Shown here: positions 17,947 to 63,522 of the stretch, one piece after another
Layout of the letters: the number at the start of each line of letters is the position of its first letter
Numbering within the stretch: position 1 is the stretch's first letter
IMG/VR virus record: IMGVR_UViG_3300036841_000085
Location: 1-64,000 of that record
DNA length: 64,000 nucleotides
Source of the DNA: a virus
Direction: 5' to 3' (one strand)
The notes under the pieces: model-generated
The model's input: the letters and a program-made list of their open reading frames with translations, nothing else
What the model was told of the DNA's origin: nothing
Databases searched by the model: none
Translations under genes and position numbers: made by a program

Positions 17947-19577
17947 ACCGGCGTTCCAGAGATGGTGCAGTAGCGCAGCACGGCGACCTGCTCAGGCAGG
18001 ACGCTGATGTTGGCTTGGGCGCCGTTGATGGTCAAGCTCGAAAAAGTATAGCTGGCCACACCCGGCGTGCGGAAGACTACATCGCCCATGGCGCCGGCTT
18101 GCACCAACTGACTCAGCCCGGTGCCGAACGGAATACCCGCCAGGTATGCCGTCAGGTTGGCTCGAATGGCGGCCCGCACCGCCGCCGGGTCGTAGCCTGG
18201 CAAGTACACCACGGTGACCACGAAATCGATGTTCAACTGCTGGGCCGCCTGGCAGCGCAGCCGCACGAAGCCAGGCATGAAGTTGTCGATATCCTCACGC
18301 TGAGTAGCCGAGCGCCAGTGTAGCGCGTCCAGGTACACGTCGGTGGTGGTGTCGTTGCCACCGCCCGACAGCCTGGTAATGCGTAGCTCCGTCTGATGCA
18401 GCATGTCCACCCAGGCATCGCCGGTGTATAGCTCCGTAAACAGGGTCGGCAACTGGGCGGCCGTCACCGTGACCAGGCTGGACGCGGTACCCAGCGGCGT
18501 GGTCCACGCCCAGCCGCCGCTGGTGTAGTCCCATACACCGACAGTCAGCAGGTTGCCAGCGCCCGGAGCACCAACCAGCTTGAACACTGGTAGCAACTCC
18601 CAAATGGTGTTCTGCGGCAGCCAGGTCTGCAGCGTCGGCATGACTATCGACGCGGTCGAGCCCGGCGGCAGCCGTACGCTGGCTCCGAAGGCCGAGTCGG
18701 GCTGGTTGGTGACCACCACGGCGCCCGACGCCAGGGTGAGCAGCGAAGCCTGGAAGGTATAGCGCCAGGGCTGCGACAGGGCGTCCCTGACCGCCTCCCT
18801 GGTCACCGTTGACACCGGCAGGTGGTTGGTGTCGATCAGCGTCACCCGCACTTCGCCAGGCGGCACCGCTGTTGGTATGTTGCCCTGGTTGGCGTACATG
18901 ATCTCGACGCCGCCCACGCCCGCCACGGTGAGCGCCTGGTTACGGATCTCCGCCCGGTTGCCAGACACGCTCTTCTGCGAGCGAGCTAGCTGAATCCGAG
19001 CCCGCAGGTGGTCGTCTGTCTCCTGGTCGGCGCCGCCAGCCATGGGCGTGGTGTTGATAACGGCACTGATGCCATTCACCTGGTCGATCAGACGGATGAC
19101 CGCGCCGGTCGGCTGGTTGCCGGCCGAGCCCGCCACGGTCGCGGCGGCCAGTACCGAGAAGTTGTTTACGCCTGACGGAATGGTGATAGCTGACAGCGTC
19201 GAATAGGTGACGCCGGTGGCCGTGCCCACCCTGGTACCGACAGGAATGACCGTACCGGCCGGACCGGTGAACTGCACCGTGCCCTGCGCCGCCACCGCCG
19301 CAATCCTGGGCGTGGCGCCCGACTCGTCAGCCAGGGCGTCCAGGTCGGAGCCGGTGGCCGTGTCCAGGAACACCCGCTGATACAGGCGCTGCGGCATGTA
19401 GGCGGCCTGCGCCAACTCCTGGGCCGCCACCGACAGTACGTCATCCTCCCACGACCCGGTGTCCAGGTCGAGCCCGCTGATTACCAGGGCGTCGGCCACC
19501 AGCCGGTTCTTGATGGCCGCAGACGTCACCTGGGCTGGCTGTTGATAGAGTGGGCTCTGCGTGTCCGAGAAGGTCAT
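17943..19577 (-). CDS. Baseplate J-like wedge protein, 544 aa
   Basis: The N-terminal half shows LDTATGSDLDALADESGATP, then GTVQFTGPAGTVIPVGTRV and ADQETDDHLRARIQLARSQK, the standard sequence of the gpJ/gp47/XkdT family. It is longer than simple J proteins (about 350-400 aa): residues 310-430 insert a strand-rich domain before the conserved C-terminal part. It forms the baseplate wedge around the hub. Confidence 0.92.
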   Translation of the reverse strand: MTFSDTQSPLYQQPAQVTSAAIKNRLVADALVISGLDLDTGSWEDDVLSVAAQELAQAAYMPQRLYQRVFLDTATGSDLDALADESGATPRIAAVAAQGTVQFTGPAGTVIPVGTRVGTATGVTYSTLSAITIPSGVNNFSVLAAATVAGSAGNQPTGAVIRLIDQVNGISAVINTTPMAGGADQETDDHLRARIQLARSQKSVSGNRAEIRNQALTVAGVGGVEIMYANQGNIPTAVPPGEVRVTLIDTNHLPVSTVTREAVRDALSQPWRYTFQASLLTLASGAVVVTNQPDSAFGASVRLPPGSTASIVMPTLQTWLPQNTIWELLPVFKLVGAPGAGNLLTVGVWDYTSGGWAWTTPLGTASSLVTVTAAQLPTLFTELYTGDAWVDMLHQTELRITRLSGGGNDTTTDVYLDALHWRSATQREDIDNFMPGFVRLRCQAAQQLNIDFVVTVVYLPGYDPAAVRAAIRANLTAYLAGIPFGTGLSQLVQAGAMGDVVFRTPGVASYTFSSLTINGAQANISVLPEQVAVLRYCTISGTPV

Positions 19578-22513: not shown

Positions 22514-23221
22514 TCAGGACTCCTGGTCGGCATCGTTGGTGTCTGCCTCACCGGGGCTGGAGGATGGCAGCTGCAATACCGTGCCGATCTGCAGGTTTTC
22601 TGGATCGTCTATACCGTTCAGGTCGGCTATCTCAGGCCAGCGCTCGCCGTCGCCCAGTTGACTGGCAGCGATGTCGTACAGAGTGTCGCCATCCTGCACC
22701 GCGTACTGGTCTGGCGTGTCCGGCGGCGCCGGCTCCGACTCAGCCAGGTTCGAGTCACCCTCCGTGGTCGCCTGGTCCTGCTCGCCGTCCAGCAGCACCA
22801 CCATGGTGCGCCACTCGGTCAAGCCCAGGCTGACCACGTAGCCGCCTCTCACGTCGGGTGTCGCCTTCAAGGTGTCGATGTACACCGTCTGGTCCTGCAC
22901 TTCGTGCTCACGCTGGATCACCAGCCGCAGCTTGGTACCCTGCTTGGCGACCGGCGCGTGCCAGTCACGTAGCTGAGCCAGGATATCCTCCGGGTGCTGG
23001 TAGTACGCCGTATAGGGCTGGTAAGCATCAGCCCAGCCTGGCAGCAGGGCGTCGAAAGTGTACGTACGCTCGTTCCGACCGTGCGGCCGCGAGATACCGC
23101 CGCGCCTGGCCACCGACCAGGACAGCTTGACCGACGCGTCGTTGACCTGTGGGCTGGGCGTGACCGGGAAGATGACGAAGGTGCCAGGATCGCTGGCGTC
23201 GTATAGCGTCACCTGCGCCAT
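22514..23221 (-). CDS. LysM-containing tail/baseplate protein (XkdP-like), 235 aa
   Basis: Residues 1-140 form the strand-rich XkdP-type body. A Glu/Pro linker leads to a LysM domain (about 178-224; YAVQDGDTLYDIAAS and WPEIADLNGI). LysM binds peptidoglycan, and in this family connects tube end to hub. The order tape measure, LysM protein, hub matches other contractile tails. Confidence 0.9.
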   Translation of the reverse strand: MAQVTLYDASDPGTFVIFPVTPSPQVNDASVKLSWSVARRGGISRPHGRNERTYTFDALLPGWADAYQPYTAYYQHPEDILAQLRDWHAPVAKQGTKLRLVIQREHEVQDQTVYIDTLKATPDVRGGYVVSLGLTEWRTMVVLLDGEQDQATTEGDSNLAESEPAPPDTPDQYAVQDGDTLYDIAASQLGDGERWPEIADLNGIDDPENLQIGTVLQLPSSSPGEADTNDADQES

Positions 23222-26200
23222 CAGCCAAACGCTCCATTAGGCATCGAATCGAAAGCCTCAGTGACGTGATTGGAGAAGTTGTCCAGGTGAGCGGTCACGA
23301 TCTGCCCGACCCGCTGGGCGAAAGACTCGCCATCTTCGCCCGGTTGCTGCACGATCTGTCCGATTGACACGAGAGGCCCACCGGAGCCGCTCCGGACGGC
23401 CTGAGCGCCAGCGGCGCTACTCTGAGCCCTGCGAGCCGGGATAACGGCTTCCGGGGCTCCGGTGTTGTTCACCGCCATGGTGACGCCAGGCATGAGCAAG
23501 CCGCCCTGGTCGTATGGTTTGTAGGCACCACCAGCTGCCACGCTCTTGACACCAGGCACGTTGCTGATGTCGCCATACGCCGCCTTGATATAGGCGATGC
23601 CAGCCATGATTTGTGCCACCGGGTCCATGGGGTCCATACCCTGCGGCGTGTACTTGGAGCGATTGCTACCGGTCAGCTGCATTAGACCCACGCTGGCGTT
23701 GCCCGCCTGGGCGTTCACGTCAGTCATGTTGGCCGCGCCTGGATTGCCGCCCGACTCATGCATCACGATGGTATTCAGGCCGCCGGCCCAGGACGCGTCC
23801 ACGCCCGATGCCTTGATCGCCTGGTCGATCCAGGAGCCCACGTCACCGGTGCCGCCTGGCAGACGGCCAGATATATTGGAGCCCAGGCTGGAAAATGCCG
23901 AGCCCACCGAACTGGCGATGGTGCCCAGTACGCCTTTCAGGTCGTCACTCTTGGACTGAATGCCGGTGATCAGACCGTCCATCATGTTGACACCGATCTG
24001 ATCGCGCATATAGGTCGACGGCGAGTTGATGCCCAGTTGCTGCTTCACGAACTTGAGCCCGTCATCGACCGCGCCCCAAATGGCGTTGCCGATAGTGGGA
24101 CCTGCCGTCGACCACCAGGCAGCCACACCCTGCCACATGTTGTTCATGACACCGATCATCTCGGCGCCGAACTGACCGCCCACCGTGGTCACGCCTTCGT
24201 GGATGGCTGAGCCCATGGCATCCATCATGTTACCGACGCCGGTGACCATCGGCGCCACCCACTCGGCCGCTCGCTGCTCCAGGGCGTTCAAGATGTCGCC
24301 CAGGTCGTCGCGCACGTTCTGCGGTATCATCTGCCAGACGTTCTGGATGGCCTGCCCGATACCCTCCAGGGCACCACCGAAGCGCCGCGCCACGTCGTCA
24401 CCGTTGGTCCATAGCTCGGTCAGCCCGACGAACGGAATCGCCAGGTCGAGCGCATCGTGTGCCAGGTCGCGGATAGTGTCCCGGTTGTCGATCAGCATTT
24501 GGAAGAACGGCCGCGTCTTGTCGCCCATCTCCGGGCCAAACGTGGTCTCGATCTGATGCTGCAGGATACCGAAGGCACCGGGGTCGCCGGTCAGTCCCTC
24601 CTTGATGGCTCGGAAGCTATCCATCACGCCCGACTGGTCTATCATCGAACCCAGGTGGTCGAAGGCATCCGCCATCTTGAGGATCACATCGATGGCACCA
24701 TTCAGCGGCCCGACGAACAGGCCACCGATGTCACGACTGAGCCCCTGCATACGCTGCTGCAGGATGGACATCTGCGTCTCAGGATCTTTTTGCGCCTTCG
24801 CCCAGGCTTGAGACACGTACTGACCTGTCAGCTGGTCATCATTCAGGTCTTTGAGGATCTGGTCGTAGTCGTCAGCACCCTTACCCATCAACAGCGCCGC
24901 ACCGATGCCGCCGCGCTGAGCGTTGAGTAGCTTTAGGGTCTCGTCCGTGGCCTGCGCCTGGGTCAAGCCCATCTTCTGGTAGGCGTCGGTGGTCTTGGCG
25001 AAGATGCCAGTGAAGCCCAGTTGCGACACGCCGGTGGCGGTGTATGCGTCTTTCAGGTCGACGCCGGTGGTGTTGGTCAGCTTCTCAATCTCTTTTTGGG
25101 CAGCCGACGCTGGCTTGATGATGTGCGTCAGCATGTTGACCACCTGCGTCTGGCTCTCGGCCGCGTCGTAGCCATTTCTGGTCAAGGCAGCCATGGACGC
25201 GCCCACCTGGTCGAGCGGTACTCCAAGCTGGGCGGCGAAAGCCACCGCTCGCCCGCTGTTCTCAGCGAACTGCTCCATGGTCATGTTGCCTTCGGCAGCC
25301 GACACGTGCAGCACGCCCATGGCATGCGCCGCGTTCTGCGTCACCGTGGCCACGTCGCCCTGGTCCTGCTTGTACTGGTGCAGCGTCGACGCCAGGATAG
25401 TGCCTGTCTGCGCCACGTCAGCACCGGTGGACGCCGCCGCCTCCGCAGCCACTTTCATGACACCATTCATGGCGTCGGTATTCTGCGTCAGGTCCATGAT
25501 ATTGCGGCTGGCTTCGATCAGCGGCGTGGTGGCGATGCCGAACTCCTGGCTGGTGTCACTGACGTTCTTGGCCAACGTAGCCATGTCCTCATTGGTCAGC
25601 GTGGTGTTGTTCTGCAGGATCATTAGCTCGTGGTTGAAGTCGGCCGCGTTCTTCGTCGCGGCACTGGCTCCGACCGCCACGGCACCTACGGCCGCTCCCA
25701 CACCAGTAGCAGCACCAAGACCGCCAAGAGCCCCCAAACCGGCAACTCCACCAAGCTCTGGGGCAATGCCACTAACAACATCTTCGCCAACTCCCAGGCT
25801 GGTCCTGGCCGCGCCACCCAGCCGACTGGCCAAGCTGGACGCGCCAGATGAGACCGTGCTGGCTGCTCGGCTGGCAGCGCTACTGGCTTTGGCCGTGGCC
25901 GTGCCGCCGGTGCCCACCTTGACGTTGGCGCCCTTGCTCAGCTTGTCGACCTCAGTCTGGATCTGCTTTAGCCTGGTCGATGCCTGGTCGGTCACGCCCA
26001 CGCGGATGGTGGTGCGGCTGGTCTGGCTGAGCTTGGATACCTCCGTCTGAATAGCCTTCATCTTGGAAGATGCCTGGTCATTCATGGTCAGCTTGATCTG
26101 CATGGCCTGCATCTTGGCCATGCGCTCGATCGCCTGCTGGTACTGCTTCTCTATCTGCGACAGCTGCGTCTGGAAGCGCCGCTCGTCAATGTTGATGACG

Positions 26201-26265
26201 ATAGTTTCCTGGTAGCTGACCCCGGCAGCGGCGCCTCCGCCGCCAGCGCTCATTACCACGAACAC
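23221..26265 (-). CDS. Tape measure protein with lytic transglycosylase domain, 1014 aa
   Basis: The N-terminus is coiled coil with repeated QIEKQYQQA-type heptads, followed by a Gly/Ala membrane-active region (about 145-195) and a TMP core. Residues about 810-920 form an SLT-type transglycosylase domain (IVMHESGGNPGA and ASVGLMQL), which cuts glycan strands during DNA entry. Residues 934-965 come from a dispersed palindromic element, close to the C-terminus. GTG at 26259 after GGAGG may be the true start. Length fits a tail of roughly 150 nm by the usual rule. Confidence 0.92.
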   Translation of the reverse strand: MFVVMSAGGGGAAAGVSYQETIVINIDERRFQTQLSQIEKQYQQAIERMAKMQAMQIKLTMNDQASSKMKAIQTEVSKLSQTSRTTIRVGVTDQASTRLKQIQTEVDKLSKGANVKVGTGGTATAKASSAASRAASTVSSGASSLASRLGGAARTSLGVGEDVVSGIAPELGGVAGLGALGGLGAATGVGAAVGAVAVGASAATKNAADFNHELMILQNNTTLTNEDMATLAKNVSDTSQEFGIATTPLIEASRNIMDLTQNTDAMNGVMKVAAEAAASTGADVAQTGTILASTLHQYKQDQGDVATVTQNAAHAMGVLHVSAAEGNMTMEQFAENSGRAVAFAAQLGVPLDQVGASMAALTRNGYDAAESQTQVVNMLTHIIKPASAAQKEIEKLTNTTGVDLKDAYTATGVSQLGFTGIFAKTTDAYQKMGLTQAQATDETLKLLNAQRGGIGAALLMGKGADDYDQILKDLNDDQLTGQYVSQAWAKAQKDPETQMSILQQRMQGLSRDIGGLFVGPLNGAIDVILKMADAFDHLGSMIDQSGVMDSFRAIKEGLTGDPGAFGILQHQIETTFGPEMGDKTRPFFQMLIDNRDTIRDLAHDALDLAIPFVGLTELWTNGDDVARRFGGALEGIGQAIQNVWQMIPQNVRDDLGDILNALEQRAAEWVAPMVTGVGNMMDAMGSAIHEGVTTVGGQFGAEMIGVMNNMWQGVAAWWSTAGPTIGNAIWGAVDDGLKFVKQQLGINSPSTYMRDQIGVNMMDGLITGIQSKSDDLKGVLGTIASSVGSAFSSLGSNISGRLPGGTGDVGSWIDQAIKASGVDASWAGGLNTIVMHESGGNPGAANMTDVNAQAGNASVGLMQLTGSNRSKYTPQGMDPMDPVAQIMAGIAYIKAAYGDISNVPGVKSVAAGGAYKPYDQGGLLMPGVTMAVNNTGAPEAVIPARRAQSSAAGAQAVRSGSGGPLVSIGQIVQQPGEDGESFAQRVGQIVTAHLDNFSNHVTEAFDSMPNGAFG
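23371..23464. repeat. Dispersed palindromic element, copy 4
   Basis: GAGAGGCCCACCGGAGC to GGGGCTCCGGTG. It contains GCTCCGGACGGCC. In frame near the C-terminus of the tape measure. Confidence 0.6.
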
Positions 26266-27667: not shown

Positions 27668-29137
27668 CTACTGGCTGGTGTTGAGCTTGATGATGATGGT
27701 GTCGACACCACCCACGTCCATGAACGGATCGATCTTGAATGCGTAAGTGCCGGCCGGCGCCGCGTTTTGGACTGTCTGGTCGAGCACCAGCTTGCTGGAC
27801 GGGTCGAGTGCCGCCGGCATGTACGCCGCCAGGCACCGTTGCCCGGTCGCTAGCAGATCCAGAAGGCCCACCTGGTTCTGCAGCGGCCGGGCATCCGGGT
27901 CAGGGTCCATGATGCGATCCAACAGGGTCTGCATCAGGTCATCCACGATGGTGAACACGCGTACCGACCTGTCGACCATCTTCCAGGCCGGGTCGATGTT
28001 CTCTGCCCATAGCGGCGGAATACCTACGTTGACCACGCTGGTCACGCCCTTGCTGGTCACCACGCGACCACGGTGGTCATGCGTGGCATAAATCATACCC
28101 GCTTGCTGGGCGTACGCCGAGTCGCTCCTGGACAGGTCGTGCGGGATGGCCGTGGCGTCTGGAATAGCTCGGCCGGTCATAGTGTGCGTCGGCCGCATGG
28201 TGCTGATAATACCAGCTACTCTGGCGGCGAAGTTGGCTCCCGCCACCGCGCCGTTGGCTGTCTGGAAATCATTGGCCACGTACACCATGGCTGGATCGTT
28301 GATGGCGGCCACGGTCGGCGCCGCCTGCTGCACGCTGACGGTGTTGATGTTCTGGCCAGCCACCGCCATGCGCCGCAGACCCTGCATGATGGCTTGGTCA
28401 ATGAAGCCCTGCAGCGCCACGTGCTCGACCGGATCTTCGCTATCCTCACACAGCGCGAACCAGGGATAGCTGAGCAGCATCTGCCTGGCCGCGTCCATGC
28501 CTGCCGCAGTCACCACCGGGTCGGAGCCGCCCGACACCGGCACCTGCGTGACCAGCCCCAGGTTGTCGCCGGCCGCGCCGCTGCCCGAGTACGCCGCGCT
28601 GAAGTACACCGAGCCACCCACGCTGGCGTTGAGCGCATTCATCAGGTCGCCGGCGGTATGCGTGGCGCCGATGTTCTTGGTCTCCAACGGCAGGCCGCCG
28701 TAGAAGGTGACGAACTCGTAGGTGCCTGGCAGCGCCGGGCTCTGGCGCAGGCTGACCTGCATGGCCATGGCACCTGGATTCTTGGCCGTCAGTTGCACAC
28801 TGGGCGTAACTGGCGCCACGGTGCTAAGGATCAAGGTGGCCGCCGCACCACCGGTGCCACCCGCTCGAACGCAGTAGGCTGCCTGGGCGCCGCCAGCCAG
28901 TGCCTGCGCCATCAGCGAGTTGATGGTCGACGACGCACCAAAGTACCTGGTGGTGTCGTCCACGCCATAGCACAACTGCGGTACGTTGAGCGGTCCCCAG
29001 GAGGCACGACCTACCAGGGCGACCACGCCGCGCACCGTAGACGGCGTCGGCACACTGCTGGTCAGCCGTAAATAGCCGCCTGGCAGGATGGGAAAGACGC
29101 CTGGGCGAATAATCTGACCGAAGGCTAGGGTAGCCAC
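27668..29137 (-). CDS. Contractile tail sheath protein, 489 aa
   Basis: The N-terminus (RPGVFPILP, then VRGVVALVGRASWGP) and C-terminal QRCLAAYMPAALDPSSKL match XkdK-type sheath proteins. The middle holds a variable beta domain (about 100-230). This protein shows that the virion is a myovirus. Its contraction drives the tube through the envelope. Confidence 0.93.
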   Translation of the reverse strand: MATLAFGQIIRPGVFPILPGGYLRLTSSVPTPSTVRGVVALVGRASWGPLNVPQLCYGVDDTTRYFGASSTINSLMAQALAGGAQAAYCVRAGGTGGAAATLILSTVAPVTPSVQLTAKNPGAMAMQVSLRQSPALPGTYEFVTFYGGLPLETKNIGATHTAGDLMNALNASVGGSVYFSAAYSGSGAAGDNLGLVTQVPVSGGSDPVVTAAGMDAARQMLLSYPWFALCEDSEDPVEHVALQGFIDQAIMQGLRRMAVAGQNINTVSVQQAAPTVAAINDPAMVYVANDFQTANGAVAGANFAARVAGIISTMRPTHTMTGRAIPDATAIPHDLSRSDSAYAQQAGMIYATHDHRGRVVTSKGVTSVVNVGIPPLWAENIDPAWKMVDRSVRVFTIVDDLMQTLLDRIMDPDPDARPLQNQVGLLDLLATGQRCLAAYMPAALDPSSKLVLDQTVQNAAPAGTYAFKIDPFMDVGGVDTIIIKLNTSQ

Positions 29138-39005: not shown

Positions 39006-40292
39006 CTACGCCGTCAGATTCATGACGGCCACGGCCAGGCCGCTGATGTCCAGGATATCATAGCCTTCGGTCTCTGTGAAGACCATATCCTGTGTCTGGG
39101 TAGTCGCGTGCCGCTCTACCTCCTGGATATCGGAGCCGATCTCGGTGACTCGCTCCACCGCCCGCCTGGAATCGAAGCCAATGATCTTGTTGGGTAGGGC
39201 GTCGGGCGTCCAGCCCAGCGCCACGTTGTCCCGCAGCGACGGGTTGATCGCTTCGAAGCCACCGAAGCCCGACGCCGCCTGGATGTACACCAGCGGGATA
39301 TTGGCAGAGCCGGTGTTGAGCAACTGCAAGGCCACCGCCGTGTCTGCGGTGACAATGGCTGTCGTCAGCATGTACGGATTGACGAACTTGCTCTTGAAGT
39401 TGAGCCAGGCACGCAGCGTGATGTTGTACGGTGGCGTCGGCGTGCTGGTACTAGCGGTCGGGTCGAGCGCCGTCAGGTTGTAGTTGGTGGCCGCCGTGTT
39501 CGGGTTGCCGTCGCCGTTGACCAGGATGTCGTAGACAGTGGCTGCCTTGTCAACCTCCGCCTGGATCGCCATAAGCGCAATCTCCATGGCGATGCGGTCC
39601 AGGCGCTGACGCCGCAGTACCTCATACGACGCTTCCAGGATGCGCCCGTACTTGCTCAGCTGGATAGTGTGCGAACTGGTGGTCAGCTTCATCCGGGGTG
39701 GTTCGGTAGACTCACCTACGCGCACCATACGTTTGAGGTTCGGGTCGACATTCTGCAAGTAGATCGACCGGTAGTCGATGCCCTGGATGGGCGTGGTCAT
39801 GGCCAGCAGCCGCTCAAGCGGGATAGCTGGCTGTAGCTGCGTCCACCTGGGCGCCGCCGCGTCGATGTACGGCCGCATGTACGTGCCTGGCGGATAGTCA
39901 GTGGCCATGTAGATGTCACGAGCGCCAGCCCCAGCGAACTGGGCCGGCTTTCGGAACTTGGCCTCCCGCCAGCGCCGGTTGATCCACTCCAGGCCAAGCA
40001 GCCTGTCCTGGGCGGTGTCGGTGAACACGTCATCATACACATCGGCCCACACGCCCGCCTCAGGCATGGAGTTGGTGTAGATGTCTTTCGCCTCCATGAC
40101 CCTGGAGAAGGCATCGTAGCCACGCCGCAGATCTTCGTCAGTGGATGGATTCAGCCGCTCCATCCAGGCCGACAGACCCATGCCTGCTTCGTAGGCGTCC
40201 CTGAACATGTCCGGGCTGATGTGCGCGGCGATATCCTGCGGATTGGTCGCCTTGACCCGGATACTGGCCGTGCTGCGTCGTTTGTTCGGCAT
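39006..40292 (-). CDS. Major capsid protein, HK97-like, 428 aa
   Basis: Position after the protease and a small head protein, length, and composition fit the shell protein. Residues 190-270 (IQLSKYGRILEASYEVLRRQ and IAMEIALMAIQAEVDKA) look like the spine-helix region, and the C-terminal part (VTEIGSDIQEVERHATTQTQ) like the P-domain of encapsulin/P22-like major capsid proteins. No long N-terminal delta domain is evident. Confidence 0.85.
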   Translation of the reverse strand: MPNKRRSTASIRVKATNPQDIAAHISPDMFRDAYEAGMGLSAWMERLNPSTDEDLRRGYDAFSRVMEAKDIYTNSMPEAGVWADVYDDVFTDTAQDRLLGLEWINRRWREAKFRKPAQFAGAGARDIYMATDYPPGTYMRPYIDAAAPRWTQLQPAIPLERLLAMTTPIQGIDYRSIYLQNVDPNLKRMVRVGESTEPPRMKLTTSSHTIQLSKYGRILEASYEVLRRQRLDRIAMEIALMAIQAEVDKAATVYDILVNGDGNPNTAATNYNLTALDPTASTSTPTPPYNITLRAWLNFKSKFVNPYMLTTAIVTADTAVALQLLNTGSANIPLVYIQAASGFGGFEAINPSLRDNVALGWTPDALPNKIIGFDSRRAVERVTEIGSDIQEVERHATTQTQDMVFTETEGYDILDISGLAVAVMNLTA

Positions 40293-44244: not shown

Positions 44245-46155
44245 TCAATCAGTGGTGGCTTCCAGCAGACCAGTGTAGGCCGCCGGCGCCTGGTTGTCCC
44301 AACTCGCACTCATGCGCCGCAGGTCGGCCGCTCCTATCTCGACCGTGCCCTGGTGTTCTGGCAGCGGGTCACCCTCCGGTGTGAATGCCTCTTCCGGAGC
44401 CCTTCCGGATGGCCTGTTGTCGCGCACGGCTACTCCGCCGTTGAGAGAGCCAGAGGCCGTCCGGTGCGCTTCCGGTGGGCCTCCGTGGGTATCGCGCCGA
44501 TAGCGTAGCGCCGGACCACGCTGGGTGAGCACGCGCAGCCAGCGACCGGGTATGCCGATCTGCCTGTCGTTGCGGCTGGCGTGCAGGTCGCTCACCTTGA
44601 GGATACCTGCCTTGACCCAGCGCTCGGCACCTTCGTCGGCCGACTCGCCGCCAGATCCCTGACCTTCGCCGTCACCCTCCTGGTCCGGCTCCTGCTCCTG
44701 GTCGCTGGTGGGCGGTGGTACTTCGGTGTACATGGGCGGCAGAATGGGCGGGAAGTCCATTAGCGCCGGGTGACCAGTGATGGCCACCGCCGCCGCGTCG
44801 TTGTCCTGCCAGCCGTACAGCACCTTGCTGATCTCGTTCAGGATCAAGGTGGCTTCGGTCTTGGCGTCACGGTCCATCTCGCTGGCTCGTAGCTCGGCGT
44901 AACGGAACTGTACCTCCGCCTGCATACCCTGCGCCCGCAGCGCCAGGCCAAGCTGTCGCTCCCACACCGACTCGGCATAGTGCTGTATGCTCTTGAAGCC
45001 GGCCGACATAATCTCCCACTCACGATTGGCCTGCGTTTCAGTGTTGCCCTGCCTGGTGCCCATCAGCACCGGCATGGTCTTGAGCGCACGTACTGTCCAG
45101 CGCTCAATGATCTCAATAATGGCAGGCAGGGCACCCAAGCTCTGCGGCGAGACCGTGCCTACCGGCCGGTTCACCTTGACGGCGCTGGTATGCACGTAGG
45201 CGTCGTCCGGCTCCAACGTGGCGTACACCTGGCGCACTTCGTCGAACACTTTGCTGACCCAGTCGCGGTACTTGATCGGATCGGCCAGTACCGACTTGGG
45301 CGCCTCCTTCGCCACCGCCTCCAGGTCGATCTCCAGGTCGATACGTGGCATGCCCTGCTGCGCCAGGACGCGGCGCAGGTCGTGCAGCACGCCCAGTAGG
45401 AACAGTGACGAGAACAGCGCCGGCGAGACCATGGCTCGTCCGTATGGCGTGCCCATGGCCGGATCAACCGGCACGTAGCTGATAGTCGGCCGCTGCGACA
45501 GGTCAACCCAGCCCTTGCCTTGCTGCCACTGCCCCAGCACATCCACGGTGCCGCGTACCTGGTCAACCTCCCGCTTGAACCTGACCGTGACCGGGTCTGG
45601 CACCACCAGGTCGGCGCAGTCTCGGCCGTTCTGCGCCAGGACCAACTCGCACAACAGGGCGCCACGCATGAAAAACGACATGGCCATACGACCGTGCACC
45701 ACGTCCACCGTGCCGTACAGACCGTCCAGCAGCGCCATAATCGACTCACAGTATTGCTGGGCTGCTTCGTTCTGATTGTCAGTGCCTGGCTGCAGGCAGA
45801 TAAGCTCCCAGCCAGGATTGAACAAGCGCAGGAAATCCCACAGCGCCCGGCTCACGTCCGGGCTGATGTCGGCCAGGATGTTGAGCAACTGCGACGGCGA
45901 CAGCTTGGCGAAGGTGTCGGCGTCCAGGTTGAAGGTCTGCCACTCCTGCTCGTAGTCGCTGGGCGGCAGGATGGCCGGCGTCGAGCCCCAGTAGCCAGGC
46001 ACATAGTCCTGGGTAAGCCGGCCACGTGGCCTGGACACGCTCGCCTGGGTAATCCAGGGCTGGTCGGGCGTGTTGCTGGTGACCGTGGCTCGCTTGGCGT
46101 ACCGCCCAAGCTCGTCCCTGGCGCGGCCGTTACGGTGCGCGACCGCCTCAGCCAC
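44245..46155 (-). CDS. Portal protein, 636 aa
   Basis: It follows the large terminase. The sequence from about residue 80 (LLNILADISPDVSRALWDFLRLFNPG) through the helical TQANREWEIMSAGFKSIQHYAE has the layout of phage portal proteins. Portals form the twelve-fold DNA channel. The C-terminal extension (about 490-636) is low-complexity and includes residues 557-590 encoded by a dispersed palindromic element. It is longer than the common 450-530 aa mainly because of this tail. Confidence 0.87.
   Translation of the reverse strand: MAEAVAHRNGRARDELGRYAKRATVTSNTPDQPWITQASVSRPRGRLTQDYVPGYWGSTPAILPPSDYEQEWQTFNLDADTFAKLSPSQLLNILADISPDVSRALWDFLRLFNPGWELICLQPGTDNQNEAAQQYCESIMALLDGLYGTVDVVHGRMAMSFFMRGALLCELVLAQNGRDCADLVVPDPVTVRFKREVDQVRGTVDVLGQWQQGKGWVDLSQRPTISYVPVDPAMGTPYGRAMVSPALFSSLFLLGVLHDLRRVLAQQGMPRIDLEIDLEAVAKEAPKSVLADPIKYRDWVSKVFDEVRQVYATLEPDDAYVHTSAVKVNRPVGTVSPQSLGALPAIIEIIERWTVRALKTMPVLMGTRQGNTETQANREWEIMSAGFKSIQHYAESVWERQLGLALRAQGMQAEVQFRYAELRASEMDRDAKTEATLILNEISKVLYGWQDNDAAAVAITGHPALMDFPPILPPMYTEVPPPTSDQEQEPDQEGDGEGQGSGGESADEGAERWVKAGILKVSDLHASRNDRQIGIPGRWLRVLTQRGPALRYRRDTHGGPPEAHRTASGSLNGGVAVRDNRPSGRAPEEAFTPEGDPLPEHQGTVEIGAADLRRMSASWDNQAPAAYTGLLEATTD
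44385..44486. repeat. Dispersed palindromic element, copy 7
   Basis: Contains TTCCGGAGCCCTTCCGGATG and GAGCCAGAGGCCGTCCGG, the two halves also seen in copies at 50716 and 62407. In frame in the portal C-terminal tail. Confidence 0.68.
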
Positions 46156-46396: not shown

Positions 46397-46915
46397 ATGA
46401 GCAGTCAACGGTACTTCCACGACTACCACGAGCGTAACAAGGAACGAATCAACGCTGCCAGGCGAGCACTGTATGCAGCTGACCCATCGCAACGTGCCGA
46501 ACATGCCAGGGTAATACACTGGCGCCTCAAGCTAGCAGCCATCCAAGCGCTGGGCGGGCGCTGCATCGGCTGCGGCGAGACAAACCCGCTGGTTCTGTCT
46601 ATCAACCATATCAACGGCACCGGTGTACCTCATGGCAAGCGACACGGACCGCTACACGCGCTGACCATATTCCGGGCCATCCGCGACGGCAAGATGGATA
46701 TGACCAGCATCGACCTGCGCTGCATGAACTGCCAGGTATTGTACGAGTACGAACGCGGCGTGCTGCGTCTGCCAGAGTCGGAAGAGCACGACGAGCTATG
46801 GGCATCTCTAGCGCCTGCGCTTCAAGGTGTTGCTGGGTGCCCAGCCTGCGGCAGCACCCGTCAGCAGAATGCCATGTCCTGGCTCAACGACAGGTTCGTA
46901 ATAAGCCATCAGTAG
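46397..46915 (+). CDS. HNH-like nuclease on opposite strand, 172 aa
   Basis: The basic N-terminal helix (YFHDYHERNKERINAARRAL) is followed by CIGC, LSINHING and LRCMNC, an HNH-type core with zinc cysteines, plus a CPAC near the end. It lies between terminase and portal but on the plus strand and overlaps the terminase 3' end by 108 bp. HNH proteins next to terminase can aid packaging, but the orientation points to a homing insert. Confidence 0.68.
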   Translation: MSSQRYFHDYHERNKERINAARRALYAADPSQRAEHARVIHWRLKLAAIQALGGRCIGCGETNPLVLSINHINGTGVPHGKRHGPLHALTIFRAIRDGKMDMTSIDLRCMNCQVLYEYERGVLRLPESEEHDELWASLAPALQGVAGCPACGSTRQQNAMSWLNDRFVISHQ

Positions 46916-48319
46916 CGCATCGGCATCGTCAGGACTGTGATGCAGCCGCTTGATAGTCTCGGCTTTCGACTCCACGTGAATCCTGTTGGCTGAGTCCCTA
47001 ACATATTTTGGCGAAGATAGTTCATGGCAGGTACGATCGTCCAGGCCGTCGAGACACCAGCCGGCGTCCAGGGTAAGCTCGCGGCCGATCTGCCACCACA
47101 TCTGGTCGCGCAGCTTGGGGAACCTGGACGGATCACTGCTAGACGAGCCAGCGTTGACACTGATCACCACCGCGTCGTGCTCGCCGGCAGAGCGTAGCTC
47201 GTCCAGGCGCGACCAGATGCCCCAGCCGACGCCGTTACTGTCCACCTTCACCCGCTTGGCACCGGTCTGCCTGATCGCCGTCAGCACCAGGTCGGTGGCT
47301 TCTTCTGCCCTGGGCGTCTGCGCTCCCCAGCGCCGGCCTACCTTGTGACCGCGCCGCTCCCTGATAGTCGTCAGGTCGCCGCCGGCGCCCACGTCCACGC
47401 CCAGGTCCACATCGCCGTCGTCGTCCCTGTCCTGGTGCTCGCAGCCCTGCATACACGCCCGTATGTTGGAAAGCGGCACCACGGAGCCAGGACTGTCCAG
47501 GGCGAAGCGACCGCGCACCTTGGACTGGTAGACGGCCGACTCGATACCTGCCTCTTCACGTAGCTCCCGCTCGTACTCCTTGCCGATCAACTGCTTGGAG
47601 ACTATCTCCGGCACCCACTCGCCGGTGAAGTTGGGTGATTCCAGGCCGTCTACGTGCACCGTGGCCCAGCCGCTGCCGGGTCGACACACCGTGGCGAAGT
47701 GACTATGCGGGAAGTCTGGATTACCGATGGCCAGGATACGTGACGAGTCGTTGGCTGCCAGCGAGCCCGCCGCGTCGAAGATCTCCTTGGGTACGCCGCC
47801 GGCTTCGTCAATGATGACCAGCACGTACGGCGCATGGATGCCCTGTAGGGCGGATGGGTCGTAGTCGCTGGGCTTCCGTCCCATGGCCACCATCTCGCCG
47901 TTGAGCCACCATTCGGTCTGATTAGTATGCCCACGCAGGCCGCCACGGTTGTGCGCCCGGTTGATCTCACGCCACAGGATGGCTCGCACCTGGGCCGCCG
48001 TGGGCGCCGTGGTCAGTACGAACGCTTCGCCGGCCGGGTGGGTCTCGATCCAGGCCGCTGCCAGACGACCGGCCAGGAACGACTTGCCTACCTCATGAGC
48101 GCTGGGTACCGCCGTGCGGCGATTATCCCACACCGTCTGCGCTATCTCGCGTTGCTTGGACCACAGGTGCTCGCCCAGCACATGCTCGATCCAGTCGGCC
48201 GGCGTCGATGCGTATGCCTGGCGGCCAAGTACCCGCTGGCGCTTGGCCTGCATTAGCGCCGCCGCTAAGGGCAGCGCTTCCAGGACGGCCGGGCTGGTCT
48301 TGGGCCGTGGCTGCGGCAC
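46808..48319 (-). CDS. terL: Terminase large subunit, 503 aa
   Basis: Packaging ATPase with PSAHEVGKS at about 72-80 (Walker A-like), VLVIIDEAGG with Asp171-Glu172 (Walker B), and a C-terminal RNase H-like nuclease starting LGVDVGAGGD (about 307-315) with KVDSNGVGWG further on. Length is normal. It overlaps the small-subunit gene. It pumps DNA through the portal and cuts the concatemer. Confidence 0.93.
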   Translation of the reverse strand: MPQPRPKTSPAVLEALPLAAALMQAKRQRVLGRQAYASTPADWIEHVLGEHLWSKQREIAQTVWDNRRTAVPSAHEVGKSFLAGRLAAAWIETHPAGEAFVLTTAPTAAQVRAILWREINRAHNRGGLRGHTNQTEWWLNGEMVAMGRKPSDYDPSALQGIHAPYVLVIIDEAGGVPKEIFDAAGSLAANDSSRILAIGNPDFPHSHFATVCRPGSGWATVHVDGLESPNFTGEWVPEIVSKQLIGKEYERELREEAGIESAVYQSKVRGRFALDSPGSVVPLSNIRACMQGCEHQDRDDDGDVDLGVDVGAGGDLTTIRERRGHKVGRRWGAQTPRAEEATDLVLTAIRQTGAKRVKVDSNGVGWGIWSRLDELRSAGEHDAVVISVNAGSSSSDPSRFPKLRDQMWWQIGRELTLDAGWCLDGLDDRTCHELSSPKYVRDSANRIHVESKAETIKRLHHSPDDADALLMAYYEPVVEPGHGILLTGAAAGWAPSNTLKRRR

Positions 48320-55985: not shown

Positions 55986-56004
55986 CAGGAACGACCTCCG
56001 GGCT

Positions 56005-56096: not shown

Positions 56097-56361
56097 CGTA
56101 GTCCACAGGACTACCGGCGTCCGAGTGCGAAGCACTCTCCCGCCCAACGGTGACGTTAAGCTCGCCAATATCTTCAAGCAACTCGACAGACTCGGCCGCC
56201 ACATCAGCGCAGCTATCCTCTAGGACCATCAGGTCGTCGAGCCCACCGCTGCGGGCTTCCATGCAGGCTAGCTCCCTAGCCTGGTTATCCGTATCAGCGT
56301 TGACGTCGGCCCAGGCGCTATATTCCTTGAGCAGGCGTACCTTGACGCGGTAACTCTTCAC
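56074..56361 (-). CDS. Hypothetical protein, 95 aa
   Basis: GTG at 56361 chosen because AGGAGG lies just upstream. N-terminal YRVKVRLLKEYSAWADVNAD looks like a small alpha/beta domain, and the end (DYGFTGGIS) lies in a dispersed element. Overlaps the upstream gene by about 44 bp. Confidence 0.57.
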   Translation of the reverse strand: MKSYRVKVRLLKEYSAWADVNADTDNQARELACMEARSGGLDDLMVLEDSCADVAAESVELLEDIGELNVTVGRESASHSDAGSPVDYGFTGGIS

Positions 56362-56854
56362 TATCACCCTCCTGTATAGCCAGGTTCGCCTCCACGCCGG
56401 CGACAAATCGCTCGACGATGGCGCGTATCCTGGCGTGGTCCGCCCAGAACTCCATCTGCTCGCTTGGGTCGCCTGCTATTTTGGCGACCACCAGGTCGTG
56501 CAGCGCCACTGTCGGCGCCAGTCCATCAGGAAGGATGGCCATGACTGGCAGTAACAGTGATCTGGCGAACTCTATTTCGCGTATGGTGCCCAGCCCACGG
56601 CCAGGTCCAGCAAGGTTGGCTATGACCGCGCAGCAATCCTGCAGCACAGCCCGGTTGCCGGCGTCTATAGCGGCCGCAAACACCGCCAACTGATTGGTCT
56701 GAACCAACCAGGGCGCCGCAGGGTCGAAGCCAATGTAGCCTAGCTCGTTGAGCACCGCTCCCAGGCTAGCACGCCAGCCACGCGCCTGGGCAGTTGTCAC
56801 GTCGTCGATTGGGCCGGCCAGATACACGACTGGCGACAGACCCAGGCCGCGCAC
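56318..56854 (-). CDS. Nucleoside 2-deoxyribosyltransferase-like protein, 178 aa
   Basis: VVYLAGPID at residues 9-17 and DCCAVIANLAGPGRGLGTIRE at about 87-107, followed by IEFA, are the two signature regions of the nucleoside 2-deoxyribosyltransferase / deoxynucleotide N-hydrolase superfamily, with Asp and Glu in the catalytic positions. Members exchange or remove bases on deoxynucleosides or deoxynucleotides. It lies in the same minus-strand run as PurZ, dUTPase and a MazG-like protein, so it may adjust the deoxynucleotide pool. GTG start overlaps the upstream stop. Confidence 0.73.
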   Translation of the reverse strand: MRGLGLSPVVYLAGPIDDVTTAQARGWRASLGAVLNELGYIGFDPAAPWLVQTNQLAVFAAAIDAGNRAVLQDCCAVIANLAGPGRGLGTIREIEFARSLLLPVMAILPDGLAPTVALHDLVVAKIAGDPSEQMEFWADHARIRAIVERFVAGVEANLAIQEGDSEELPRQGTPAQGI

Positions 56855-58106: not shown

Positions 58107-58532
58107 CTATGTTAGTTCGTCGCTGTCAGGCAAGGTCAGCCAGCCCTGGCGCAACAGCAGGTCAAGAATGGCGTAGTTTACGATATCGCGCAGGTCATCC
58201 TCCACGCTCTCGGTAGCCTCATAGCCAGTCGGCAGGTGCTGGCTCAGGATCTCAGCCGGAATGCCGTACTGCGTAGCCTGGGCGACAAAGCTGGCCAGCT
58301 GCGCCGCTGCCAGGACCCGCTCGCCCTTGTCGCGCACCAGGCGATTGATAATGCCTGGCTCGCCCTGCTCCACCAGGTTGGCCACGCCACGCATACGGTG
58401 TTTCTGCAACAGGATCGCCCAACAGCGCGAGATCTCCAGGGCTGCCGCCGCCTCAAAGGTGGTGGGCGGCCCGCTGCCCAGGCCGTCGATAATCGCCCGC
58501 AGGTCCACCGCCGCCCGCAGGTCGTCAGGCAT
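58107..58532 (-). CDS. MazG/DUF1599-like nucleotide pyrophosphohydrolase candidate, 141 aa
   Basis: The middle (ILLQKHRMRGVANLVEQGEPG, cited in part) and the C-terminal ESVEDDLRDIVNYAILDLLL match the DUF1599 / all-alpha NTP-pyrophosphohydrolase pattern, where the acidic residues of the last helix coordinate magnesium. In known Z phages a MazG-like enzyme (MazZ) hydrolyses dGTP or GTP to supply dGMP for PurZ. This protein, two genes downstream of purZ, could fill that role, but belongs to a different branch of the fold. Overlaps the dUTPase gene. Confidence 0.65.
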   Translation of the reverse strand: MPDDLRAAVDLRAIIDGLGSGPPTTFEAAAALEISRCWAILLQKHRMRGVANLVEQGEPGIINRLVRDKGERVLAAAQLASFVAQATQYGIPAEILSQHLPTGYEATESVEDDLRDIVNYAILDLLLRQGWLTLPDSDELT

Positions 58533-59046
58533 CCGACGAGCCGAACCCTGACGTACCGCGCACGGTCTCGGGCAGCTTATCCACTTCCACCCAGGGCGGC
58601 GTCAGCGCTGGGAAAATAAGCACCTGCTTGAGTCGGGCGTCGGGCTCGACAAACACTGGCTCGTCGCCAGGATTGAACACGCCCGACAGTAGCTCGCCGG
58701 TGTACTCCGTGTCGATGATGCCCTGCATGCTGATCAGACCACGGTTGCGCCAGGTCGACGAGCGGCCAGTGATCATTGCCCACAGCCCGGCCGGCAGCTT
58801 GATGGCGATACCGCTGTGAAAGCTGACGTAGCTGTGCGGCGGCACGAAGCCTCCGTCCAGGCAGACCAGGTCGAAACCCACGTCTCCTGGCTTGGCCAGC
58901 TTGGGCGTGACCGCCTCCGGCCGCAACTTGACGAACTGTATCGGTCGCTCCATGGCCTGCCGCCACTGATCCATCTGTGACTCGGCCCAGTGCTGCTCCA
59001 TCACCTGTCGAACATGCCCCACGTCGGGCGGCCGTCTGTCAGGCAT
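58525..59046 (-). CDS. dut: dUTPase-family protein, 173 aa
   Basis: All five trimeric dUTPase motifs are present in order: PGDVGFDL, GRSSTWRNRGL, GIIDTEYTGEL, ARLKQVLIFP and GTSGFGSS. The N-terminal 40 residues are an extra helical segment. It converts dUTP to dUMP, or in some phages acts on related nucleotides. It follows purZ and has its own N18 promoter overlapping the purZ stop. Confidence 0.88.
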   Translation of the reverse strand: MPDRRPPDVGHVRQVMEQHWAESQMDQWRQAMERPIQFVKLRPEAVTPKLAKPGDVGFDLVCLDGGFVPPHSYVSFHSGIAIKLPAGLWAMITGRSSTWRNRGLISMQGIIDTEYTGELLSGVFNPGDEPVFVEPDARLKQVLIFPALTPPWVEVDKLPETVRGTSGFGSSDA

Positions 59047-59087: not shown

Positions 59088-59117
59088 AGCTTATCAGGCC
59101 GTAGCTGTCTTTGGCAA
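59088..59117 (-). promoter_or_regulatory. TTGCCA-N18-TAAGCT promoter overlapping the purZ stop
   Basis: On the minus strand TTGCCA is followed after 18 nt by TAAGCT. The purZ TGA stop is part of CTGATAAGCT. It drives dUTPase and downstream genes. Confidence 0.62.
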
Positions 59118-60299
59118 GTCCAGCCGGCCGCGCCGGCGCAGGGACGAGACCCAGGCGTCATGGTTCCAGCGGTCTGGCCGCTGCATGGACGGGCGCCGAT
59201 CGATCAGTATGTCAGGACCGGTACCAACGAACCAGATCCTCACGCCCAGGTGGTGCTCCATCTTAGAGACCCACTCGGCAGCCTTCGGGTGATTGTCGCA
59301 CAGGTCGGCCCAGGTGGTCACGCCGGCCGCGTCCGGGAACAGATAGTCCAGGAAGGTGACGGCCAGGCCGTCTGGCGCATTCAGATCAATGGCTTGCTTG
59401 GCCAGGTCGCCGTCCCAGGCGCCGATACGTCGTGGCTTCCTGGTCACCGTGGTGAACTCGACCAGGTCTTTGATACCGGTCATGCGCTGCATGGTCGCCC
59501 AGTCCACTTCGCCCTTCATCGGCCCGCTGTTGCCAGCCACCCGGATCGGGCAGGTACGGAACACCACGATGACGGACGACACATGCTGCGGTGCCAGGCC
59601 AGCGTCGGCCGCCATCTGCGCCGCATTAGTGTCGTGGTTGGTAGTGAACGGCCAGGTGCCATGAATGACCGACAAGCCGGTGCCCTGCGTACCTTCCAGC
59701 AGGATGGGCATTCCGCCAGACCTGACCGCGTCGGCCAGGAACCCGGCCGTGTTGGGCCGCAGGATGGGCTCCAGCCAGGGCTCGCTGTCCAGCATATTCT
59801 CGGCCCGCTCGAACATCAGCGTGTTGCGCTGCAGTCGGGCGATGCGTGCCACGCCAACTCCCTCACCGGTCGAGCCATAGCGCCGGTGGGCTTCGCCGTG
59901 TACGCCGCCCGCTTCGTCACGGTGTTCCGGGCTGATGATGCCAGCGTGCGTGTCTAGCCAGATGCGCTGTTCGATGGGCTCACGCAGCGTCATCTGCTTG
60001 GTCTCCATCATGGTCTGCTCAAAGGCACGGATGGCGTCCATCTCCCGCTTGAGCACTTCCAGGCTGACCAGGGCTCCTGGCGTCAGGATCAGGCGGCCTA
60101 CCGGGTTGGTCCAGCCGACCGGCACCTGTTGCATCGGCCACTTTTTGCCCAGGTAACTGAAAGTATGCCCAGCGTTCGGCCCGCCCGACCTGACGTGCAC
60201 GGCGAACTCGTCGGCCAGATAGTGGGCGATAGAGCCCTTGCCTTCCGAGCCGTACTGACCGCCCACCAGGGCGACCACGGCGCTCCTGCTGTCAGGCAC
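59094..60299 (-). CDS. purZ: 2-aminoadenylosuccinate synthetase (PurZ), 401 aa
   Basis: An adenylosuccinate-synthetase homologue. The first glycine-rich loop reads GGQYGSEGKG (residues 13-22), so Ser18 stands where PurA has its catalytic Asp (GDEGKG). Loss of this Asp is the recognised mark of PurZ, which joins aspartate to dGMP on the way to 2-aminoadenine. The catalytic His is kept (NAGHTF, His45). TTNHDTNAAQMAADAGL corresponds to the PurZ loop that in PurA reads SSNTTAGG-like, and RVAGNSGP and RRIGAWDGDLAKQAIDLN follow the common fold. Length is that of a full enzyme. It overlaps an HTH gene upstream by 8 bp. It could only be a plain PurA if the Ser were tolerated, which I consider unlikely. 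Confidence 0.88.
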   Translation of the reverse strand: MPDSRSAVVALVGGQYGSEGKGSIAHYLADEFAVHVRSGGPNAGHTFSYLGKKWPMQQVPVGWTNPVGRLILTPGALVSLEVLKREMDAIRAFEQTMMETKQMTLREPIEQRIWLDTHAGIISPEHRDEAGGVHGEAHRRYGSTGEGVGVARIARLQRNTLMFERAENMLDSEPWLEPILRPNTAGFLADAVRSGGMPILLEGTQGTGLSVIHGTWPFTTNHDTNAAQMAADAGLAPQHVSSVIVVFRTCPIRVAGNSGPMKGEVDWATMQRMTGIKDLVEFTTVTRKPRRIGAWDGDLAKQAIDLNAPDGLAVTFLDYLFPDAAGVTTWADLCDNHPKAAEWVSKMEHHLGVRIWFVGTGPDILIDRRPSMQRPDRWNHDAWVSSLRRRGRLDLPKTATA

Positions 60300-60498
60300 T
60301 GGCCACTTCCTTCTCCAATGACTGCAGGTAGGCTTCGATGTCGGCCACCCTGATCAGGCGCCGGTTGCCATCCTTGACCGACCGCAGCTTGCCGTCGCGC
60401 ACCATGCGGTACACCAGCAGCCGACTGCAGCCCAGCATCTGCGCTGCCTCCGCCGGTCGAACCACTATGCGATTGTCCGTGACCTGGTCTTTTGCCAT
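60292..60498 (-). CDS. HTH excisionase-like DNA-binding protein, 68 aa
   Basis: RPAEAAQMLGCSRLLVYRMV, then RDGKLRSVKDGNRRLIRVAD and IEAYLQSL is the classic helix-turn-helix-17 / excisionase-family domain (MerR-like). It overlaps purZ by 8 bp, so it may regulate the purZ operon. A minus-strand TAAAAT at 60520-60525 could be its -10. No integrase is in the window, so a regulatory role is more likely than excision. Confidence 0.82.
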   Translation of the reverse strand: MAKDQVTDNRIVVRPAEAAQMLGCSRLLVYRMVRDGKLRSVKDGNRRLIRVADIEAYLQSLEKEVASA

Positions 60499-62188: not shown

Positions 62189-62512
62189 CTAGCGCATGCC
62201 GGACTGGGTCGGCAGGCGCTGCCGCTTGTAGGTCATCTTGCAGGCCGGGCATAGCGCTATCTCGGGCGTCACCCATACCAACTCGTGGTCGTCGCCCTTG
62301 GCACGGCCTGGTTCCATATCCAATGTTGCCATCTGTCGCTCGGCCTCCTGGTCGGCTCGTCGTCTACGCTCTGTCTCCTGGTCGAACGCCCGGTCCCAGG
62401 CGTTGCTCCGGCCGTATTCCGGACGGCCACCGGATGGCCTCTGTCTCTTTGAACGGCTACCGGGCCGTCCGGAGCCAGAGGCCGTTTCCTTGCCCTCCGG
62501 TGAAGCCGTCAC
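62189..62512 (-). CDS. Zinc-containing protein with repeat-derived N-terminus, 107 aa
   Basis: The GTG start overlaps the stop of the ATPase gene. Residues 1-35 come from a dispersed element and are basic and disordered. Residues 40-70 are a charged helix. CPAC near residue 89 gives a partial metal site. Function unknown. Confidence 0.58.
   Translation of the reverse strand: MTASPEGKETASGSGRPGSRSKRQRPSGGRPEYGRSNAWDRAFDQETERRRRADQEAERQMATLDMEPGRAKGDDHELVWVTPEIALCPACKMTYKRQRLPTQSGMR
62407..62510. repeat. Dispersed palindromic element, copy 10
   Basis: GGACGGCCACCGGATGGCC, then GGGCCGTCCGGAGCCAGAGG and CTTGCCCTCCGGTGAAGCC. One of the best-preserved copies. It provides the start codon and N-terminus of the 62189 gene. 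Confidence 0.75.
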
Positions 62513-63522
62513 GACACAGGGTCGCGAAGGTTCGGCAACCTGCTGGTGTCGATGACCACGGCAAGCTCGCTGATACGACTGGTGGTACGCGGGTGACCCA
62601 GGATCTCCGTAAGTTCGTCCATAGCCAGGTTACTGGTAAAAATGGTCCGTCGCCGCTCACGGTGCCTGGTGGCAATCAGGTCCCACAGCGTCTCTGTCGC
62701 CCAGTCCACGTTGGCATCAGCACGGTGACGCTCGGCACCGATATCGTCGACTAGCAGCACCTGCACACCGACCAGGGCTTCCCAGGCCACGTCCAGGCTA
62801 TCGGTCATGGCCTGACGGTTGCCGTACGACGAGCGCAGACGCCGCAGCATGTCGGATACCTCAACAAACAAGCTGGTCTGACCACGCTCCGCCAACTCTC
62901 GCAGGGCGCCCACCGCCGCGCCGGTCTTGCCGGTTCCGACAGGCCCATACAGGTATAACCAGCGATCCTCTTCGTCGATCCATAACTGGATGCGAGCAGC
63001 TAGCCGCTGGTGGCGATCCGACTGGGCTGCCAAGCTGATCAACGACCAGTCTTTATAGGAACCGGGCAGGCTACCATACATGCGCTCGATCACAGCCTGG
63101 ACGCGGTCACGTTCCATGGCCTCCGCCGCTGCCTGCACCTTAGCCTTCATCAGAGCCCCGTCTTGACAATCGCAGTATACCTGCCAACCGTAGATGGGCT
63201 CGCCATCTGAACCCAGGCCGTGCGCCGTTCGATGATGACCACCCATGCCCAGGCACCAGCAACCAGCAGATCGACCGACCGCTAGTGCCTCATACCACCT
63301 GGCCAACTCCAGGTCGTGCTCCAGGCGGGTCCTGGCGCCGCGAGCGTCACGACTATCTTCGCCAGCCAGCGCTGCCAGGTCAGCCTCCAGACGAGCCACC
63401 GACCAAGGCGGCCTGGCAGCGTCCAGCAACATGCGGTCCACCCATTCCGGGTCGCGGTCTGGCCCGGCGTCCTGGATACGCTGCCGGCGCAGGCGTCCTA
63501 GTACGTCTCCCAACGATTCCAT
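62509..63522 (-). CDS. DnaC/IstB-like AAA+ helicase loader, 337 aa
   Basis: A Cys-containing segment (GCWCLGM, later YCDCQD; about 95-125) precedes an AAA+ domain with LYGPVGTGKTG (Walker A), VLLVDDIGAE (Walker B), IFTSNL (sensor 1) and RTTSRI (arginine finger/sensor). This is the usual phage DnaC-like loader that delivers the replicative helicase. It sits directly downstream of the initiator-like gene, overlapping by one codon. Confidence 0.87.
   Translation of the reverse strand: MESLGDVLGRLRRQRIQDAGPDRDPEWVDRMLLDAARPPWSVARLEADLAALAGEDSRDARGARTRLEHDLELARWYEALAVGRSAGCWCLGMGGHHRTAHGLGSDGEPIYGWQVYCDCQDGALMKAKVQAAAEAMERDRVQAVIERMYGSLPGSYKDWSLISLAAQSDRHQRLAARIQLWIDEEDRWLYLYGPVGTGKTGAAVGALRELAERGQTSLFVEVSDMLRRLRSSYGNRQAMTDSLDVAWEALVGVQVLLVDDIGAERHRADANVDWATETLWDLIATRHRERRRTIFTSNLAMDELTEILGHPRTTSRISELAVVIDTSRLPNLRDPVS

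Follow-up and report, generated by a model that had tools for sequence, protein, structure and literature searches.

The described phages with 2-aminoadenine (Z) in place of adenine encode adenylosuccinate synthetase homologues of two kinds, PurZ and PurZ0. PurZ0-type phages use DutZ, DmtZ and DUF5664 in place of DatZ and MazZ; dutZ was reported in 98 of 98 PurZ0 genomes and dmtZ in 85 of 98, the DutZ enzymes of Ghobes and Wayne hydrolyse both dATP and dGTP, and Ser was found in 100% of 147 phage PurZ/PurZ0 sequences (PMC12884076). The Z phages published so far have polymerases of their own, usually Z-selective, and are classed as siphoviruses and podoviruses (PMC8599892, PMC8342488). We analysed the first 64,000 nucleotides (the window) of the 65,581-base record IMGVR_UViG_3300036841_000085, which comes from an uncultured bacterial virus. 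Our reading of its genes, to which we assign a probability of about 75%, is that the window represents most of the genome of a contractile-tailed phage that carries a dZTP-making gene set with a third lineage of PurZ, and whose Z would be inserted by the host polymerase. Like the PurZ phages (phiVC8, S-2L and SH-Ab 15497/DMU1-like), it has Ser at position 13 of the synthetase (E. coli PurA numbering) and a pathway of the same predicted purpose, and S-2L is likewise without DpoZ; unlike the window record, the PurZ phages have DatZ, MazZ, Asn or Gln at position 333 (ATP donor) and DpoZ-2 or PrimPol.

The purZ-like gene (59094..60299, minus strand) starts with GTG and encodes a 401-residue adenylosuccinate synthetase homologue, whose membership of the family is far above chance (Pfam PF00709, 1.4e-45) and which also matches PHROG 1211, '2-aminooxy adenylosuccinate synthetase' (1.4e-62). 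It fell short of the NCBIfam cut-offs for archaeal PurA (263 of 368 bits) and for PurZ (NF038379; 209 of 300 bits), so family scores alone leave its identity unsettled. A fold search with its predicted AlphaFold2 structure (pLDDT 89.6) returned archaeal PurA first (5k7x, 1.9e-32) and PurZ0 third (7vf6, 2.6e-28). The initial annotation had called the protein PurZ from a GGQYGSEGKG loop with Ser in place of the catalytic Asp and from the retained His of NAGHTF, and alignment to E. coli PurA bore out both residues: Ser18, in the loop VGGQYGSEGKG, aligns with Asp13, and His45, in the second motif GGPNAGHTF, with His41. At position 128 the protein has Ser and at position 303 Lys (Lys288), both as in PurZ0, where PurA has Thr and Arg, respectively. 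Position 333 retains Asp (Asp318), as in PurZ0 and PurA, whereas PurZ has Asn or Gln. Asp333 of PurA is the residue that recognizes guanine, and since it is kept here GTP is the predicted phosphate donor. The PurZ0 enzymes of Gordonia phages Archimedes and Ghobes, Microbacterium phage Goodman, Micrococcus phage Olihed and Arthrobacter phage Joann share Ser13, His41, Lys303 and Asp333 with the window protein, to which they are nevertheless only 31-37% identical.

The tree of PurA and PurZ that had been proposed as a check on the annotation placed the protein with the phage PurZ-type enzymes and not inside PurA. In a careful analysis of 61 rows (IQ-TREE, LG+C20; support as bootstrap/SH-aLRT) it fell in a 23-row clade composed of viral contigs only (100/99), sister to the PurZ0 enzymes of actinophages (96/86). 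PurZ (phiVC8, S-2L, DMU1), PurA and the chromosomal Ser groups all branched elsewhere, and a quick tree of 97 rows agreed. Because the protein lies outside both the PurZ0 clade and the PurZ clade proper in both trees, it represents by this phylogeny a third phage lineage, neither PurZ nor PurZ0. The 23-row clade is without any named phage in the collections searched. Its member closest to the window protein, 51-52% identical, is encoded by IMGVR_UViG_3300006674_000157 (L017), and the best-covered matches among named phages are 30-37% identical. A single-protein scan of IMG/VR with the window PurZ recovered no relatives; an alignment-based PurZ scan succeeded.

Two records were dropped during this comparison. 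'Staphylococcus phage SA 1306 Kay' (OR844989.1) is an unverified contig of 283 kb whose enzyme is an ordinary bacterial PurA with GDEGKG, and it looks like host DNA deposited as phage. A 188 kb record with a sheath gene (G035) was set aside since its Ser-type synthetase groups with chromosomal enzymes without the NAGH motif. A Ser-type enzyme of Bacillus phage vB_BpsS-140 (L012:11968-13089) falls within the PurZ lineage (support 100/98) and has Asn at position 333; the phage, which also encodes an adenylate kinase and a dUTPase, may be a Z phage of Firmicutes.

The initial annotation took Ser or Gly in the glycine loop, with the following His kept, as the signature of PurZ. The Ser is indeed present, as in the phage PurZ and PurZ0 enzymes, but it is unspecific: when bacterial and archaeal genomes were scanned for the Ser-loop or GPNAGH patterns, 366 homologues matched, and of 79 loci examined among them nearly all have Ser. 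As the residue is shared by many homologues on bacterial chromosomes, it is weak evidence for PurZ when taken alone. The chromosomal enzymes include fusions of a kinase to the synthetase and a group in which NSGH replaces NAGH. These two large bacterial groups, each with Ser13 and its own conserved neighbours (in one case dCTP deaminase-like), lend some substance to the idea that a phage acquired a chromosomal-type enzyme with another function, for example in a nucleotide-based defence or modification cassette. We regard this as very improbable, given that the window protein lies outside both groups and has neither their kinase fusion nor their NSGH motif, and that the neighbouring dUTPase is of the DutZ type. 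Still less credible is that the phage has acquired an ordinary PurA as an auxiliary metabolic gene, to turn IMP into the precursor of AMP. Among solved structures, the top match by both sequence and fold is an archaeal PurA (Pyrococcus horikoshii, 5k7x), with which the protein shares the short-form fold; the archaeal enzyme, however, has the catalytic Asp that the window protein has lost, and lies outside the whole Ser-type group. The tree excludes PurA at 100/100, on which we reject this reading, and the linkage to dutZ and to a nucleoside 2-deoxyribosyltransferase (NDT)-like gene also speaks against it. The 59094-60299 product is very probably a PurZ-type synthetase of the third lineage, and it is the neighbouring genes that carry the argument.

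The chromosomal groups have conserved surroundings of their own. In the NSGH group of chromosomal Ser13 synthetases (L104, L107, L113, L140 and about 29 similar loci), a gene for a dCTP deaminase-like protein of about 340 residues (best PDB match a dCTP deaminase, 4e-5) lies downstream in 30 of 33 loci, a second conserved neighbour, DUF429-like by eye, occurs in 28 of 33, and a gene resembling a deoxynucleoside kinase in 7 of 33. The pairing parallels that of purZ and dutZ in phages. The fusions of a P-loop nucleotide kinase-like domain to a Ser-type synthetase (L105, L111, L112, L116, L118 and about 32 further loci) are spread over many bacterial phyla, with the same gene of about 220 codons downstream in 33 of 37 loci and the same gene of about 450-540 codons upstream in 20 of 37. 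They look like a conserved cassette, possibly one of defence.

The gene next to purZ (58525..59046, minus strand) encodes a dUTPase homologue that, by its motifs and its place in a tree, is of the DutZ type and is predicted to be a dATP/dGTP (and dUTP) diphosphohydrolase. The 30 best-ranked of the 1229 phage records that match it are all actinophages, from groups that carry purZ0. In a tree of 67 rows, a branch of length 2.06 (89/100) separates 21 canonical dUTPases (13 cellular, 8 phage) from the purZ-associated proteins; the window protein falls on the purZ-associated side, on a long branch that leaves its place within that side unsettled. Motif II agrees with this assignment: the DutZ proteins have GRSS, with Ser in 44 of 44, canonical enzymes have PRSG, with Gly in 20 of 21, and the window protein reads TGRSST. 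At the motif III position, where 18 of the 21 canonical enzymes have Asn and DutZ proteins mostly Glu, Pro or Gln, it has Gln. The five PurZ0 phages named above have purZ followed by dutZ, as in the window, with DutZ proteins 35-46% identical to the window's, and most of them also have an NDT-fold (DmtZ) gene. An HTH_17 (excisionase/MerR-like) protein is encoded by a gene (60292..60498, minus strand) that immediately precedes purZ and shares 8 bases with it.

On the far side from purZ, dutZ overlaps by 8 bases an open reading frame (58107..58532, minus strand) that resembles DUF1599 (nucleotide modification associated domain 1). Its Pfam match (E = 0.015) is weak when taken alone, and homologues are found in relatives, in L037 (5e-12) and, by iterated search, in L017 and L018, where they adjoin dutZ. 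In three other relatives the domain is fused to a DmtZ-like NDT domain (L020:9078-9956, L024:11034-11804, L038:8346-8903), which seems analogous to the fusion of DmtZ with DutZ in Arthrobacter phages. In the window a separate NDT-fold gene (56318..56854, minus strand) lies 1.7 kb on from dutZ, past the DUF1599-like gene. Its product matches PF05014 just under the cut-off (4.2e-6; 27.3 bits against 28.8), and its Tyr11, Asp17, Asn67, Glu93 and Pro45 align with Tyr6, Asp12, Asn77 and Glu103 of Ghobes DmtZ and with its transferase Pro. A sequence search of the PDB gave no useful match, and a fold search was therefore used; the model (pLDDT 63, better in the core) matched NDT and DNPH1 structures (E = 2e-5). 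Its identity to DmtZ is about 20-28%, and we propose only that it would work like DmtZ. About 1.0 kb downstream of the NDT gene, 54638-55348 encodes a putative DNA methyltransferase (PHROG 24333) with a DPPH motif.

We compared 26 records carrying the closest PurZ relatives. A dUTPase is present in 20 of them, a family-A polymerase likewise in 20, and a homologue of the window NDT in 8; wherever coordinates were compared, polA lies directly upstream of purZ. Since the order (polA)-purZ-dutZ-(DUF1599)-NDT recurs, we consider these genes a cassette, which the window has minus polA. The contig with the closest PurZ (IMGVR_UViG_3300006674_000157, 29.9 kb) reads polA-purZ-dutZ-MTase-DUF1599-NDT beside contractile tail genes. 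It thus shares dutZ, the DUF1599-like gene, NDT and a homologous tail with the window and differs in having polA directly upstream of purZ and a methylase in the cluster; the latter, an N6/N4 DNA methylase between dutZ and the DUF1599-like gene, is at L185:3552-4748. The PurZ reading of the initial annotation is therefore supported by tree position, by the DutZ-type neighbour, by the NDT/DmtZ-like gene and by the recurrence of the set in relatives, and the window holds, as judged from its predicted proteins, a coherent gene set for replacing A by Z.

The structural genes, all on the minus strand, bear out the contractile tail recognized at the outset. They encode a tail sheath protein (27668..29137; PHROG 279, 5.6e-31), a baseplate wedge/J-like protein (17943..19577; PHROG 6, 1.7e-54) and a tape measure protein (23221..26265), together with a major head protein (39006..40292), a portal protein (44245..46155) and the large subunit of terminase (46808..48319). 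The tail of the contig with the closest PurZ is homologous in its sheath (5.7e-107), sheath initiator and Baseplate_J protein. A tblastn search with the window sheath found no relative among named phages, nor did a single-protein scan of IMG/VR with it. A contractile virion for this purZ-carrying phage is thus well supported at the level of predicted genes. The initial annotation also suggested a new virion type for Z-DNA. Two independent contractile contigs with the Z gene set uphold this as far as genes go. No contractile-tailed Z phage was found in the open-access literature searched, an absence there rather than proof.

As to the host, an actinobacterium had been proposed, and we consider this no more than plausible. 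The best matches of the terminase and of DutZ are mostly actinophages, GC content is about 64%, and 55515-56204 encodes a probable lysis- or cell-wall-related protein whose Rpf-like transglycosylase domain (PF06737, 1.8e-29) is typical of Actinobacteria. For the baseplate, most matches are to phages that infect Firmicutes, and some are to Gordonia phages.

Where the window departs from the described systems is in replication. The named PurZ0 phages encode PolA (DpoZ-1), whereas the 65,581-base record has no match to PolA, PolB, PolIII-alpha or PrimPol (PF00476, PF00136, PF07733 and PF09250, respectively) and instead combines its cassette with a contractile tail and a DUF1599-like gene; nor did it match DpoZ, the DatZ of S-2L and phiVC8 or the MazZ of S-2L and DMU1. 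The four closest purZ relatives, a sister subclade, also gave no match to the four polymerase families, and their large open reading frames revealed no polymerase among the Pfam families listed; two of these four records exceed 40 kb (G025, 40.7 kb; G016, 43.2 kb). The record does encode a DnaC-like helicase loader (62509..63522, minus strand; PHROG 50, 2.4e-32) and, just beyond it, an O/DnaD-like initiator (63522-64235 of the record; L003:17522-18235). Such a pair belongs to phages that replicate through the host replisome, and with no polymerase of the phage's own that replisome would insert Z. The accessible literature on known Z phages reports none without a polymerase. The Z cluster of S-2L on its own in E. 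coli nevertheless gave A-to-Z replacement of 12% in plasmid and 4% in chromosomal DNA through insertion by host polymerases (PMC8342488), so that Z without DpoZ is possible, if maybe partial. For the same lack of a polymerase in the record, full replacement of A is not to be assumed.

Alternatively, DpoZ could be encoded on a missing part of the contig, and the phage would be an ordinary Z phage with a new virion type, a reading that departs from our preferred one only in the replication step. The record belongs to the linear class of IMG/VR, often a fragment; with open ends to the contig, the assembly may have missed a polymerase, and 20 of the 26 relatives have PolA. We nevertheless think this unlikely, because the place of polA upstream of purZ is taken by other genes in the window, because G025 and G016 are also without every polymerase family tested and because a replication module of the DnaC/O type is present. 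More improbable again, in our judgement, is that dZTP is made but enters the genome in minor or incidental amounts, and that the pathway serves mainly for nucleotide-pool warfare, in which the drain on dATP and dGTP starves host replication or dNTP-sensing defences. The absence of a Z-selective polymerase from the record fits such a role, as does the replacement of only 4-23% reached by host polymerases alone in E. coli; yet a purZ with PurZ-specific residues is not needed merely to drain pools, and most relatives pair purZ with a PolA gene directly upstream.

Returning to the preferred reading, in which host polymerase inserts Z, dATP and dGTP would be converted to dAMP and dGMP by the DutZ-type enzyme, which the DUF1599-like protein may assist, and the PurZ-type enzyme would join dGMP and aspartate into N6-succino-2-amino-dAMP with GTP as the predicted phosphate donor. 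Host PurB and host kinases would complete dZTP. The NDT-fold enzyme would destroy dAMP, or transfer its deoxyribose phosphate to free Z base, keeping dATP low, and the host replicative polymerase would place Z opposite T. Adenine would thus be excluded through depletion of the pool and not by a Z-selective polymerase, so that replacement may be partial. Against this stand the lack of DpoZ, PrimPol, DatZ and MazZ in the record, when the published Z phages have polymerases of their own, the Ser shared with chromosomal homologues that are not phage Z enzymes, the synthetase score under the NCBIfam PurZ cut-off, the open ends of the contig and the NDT assignment, with its match under the cut-off and its model of moderate confidence. 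Z leaves no mark in assembled metagenomic sequence, and base composition was excluded as evidence. Overall, the phage probably makes Z-containing DNA; we infer each enzyme activity and the Z in its DNA from the genes. The scheme in its strictest form, with a Z genome made through the host polymerase, A excluded only by dATP depletion (DutZ, the DUF1599-like protein and NDT), a GTP-type PurZ of the third lineage and a polymerase lost in the whole subclade, is tentative, and we rate it a little short of an even chance. Replication free of a Z-selective polymerase is at once the most interesting and the least certain part of the case.

If this reading is correct, Z genomes would also occur in contractile virions, as represented by two independent contigs, and purZ would have at least three phage lineages rather than two. 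Replication of Z-DNA may then need no dedicated polymerase. A dispensable polymerase would help to explain how the Z trait moves between unrelated phages as a short cassette, and polymerase-free Z replication would bear directly on the building of Z-containing bacteria.
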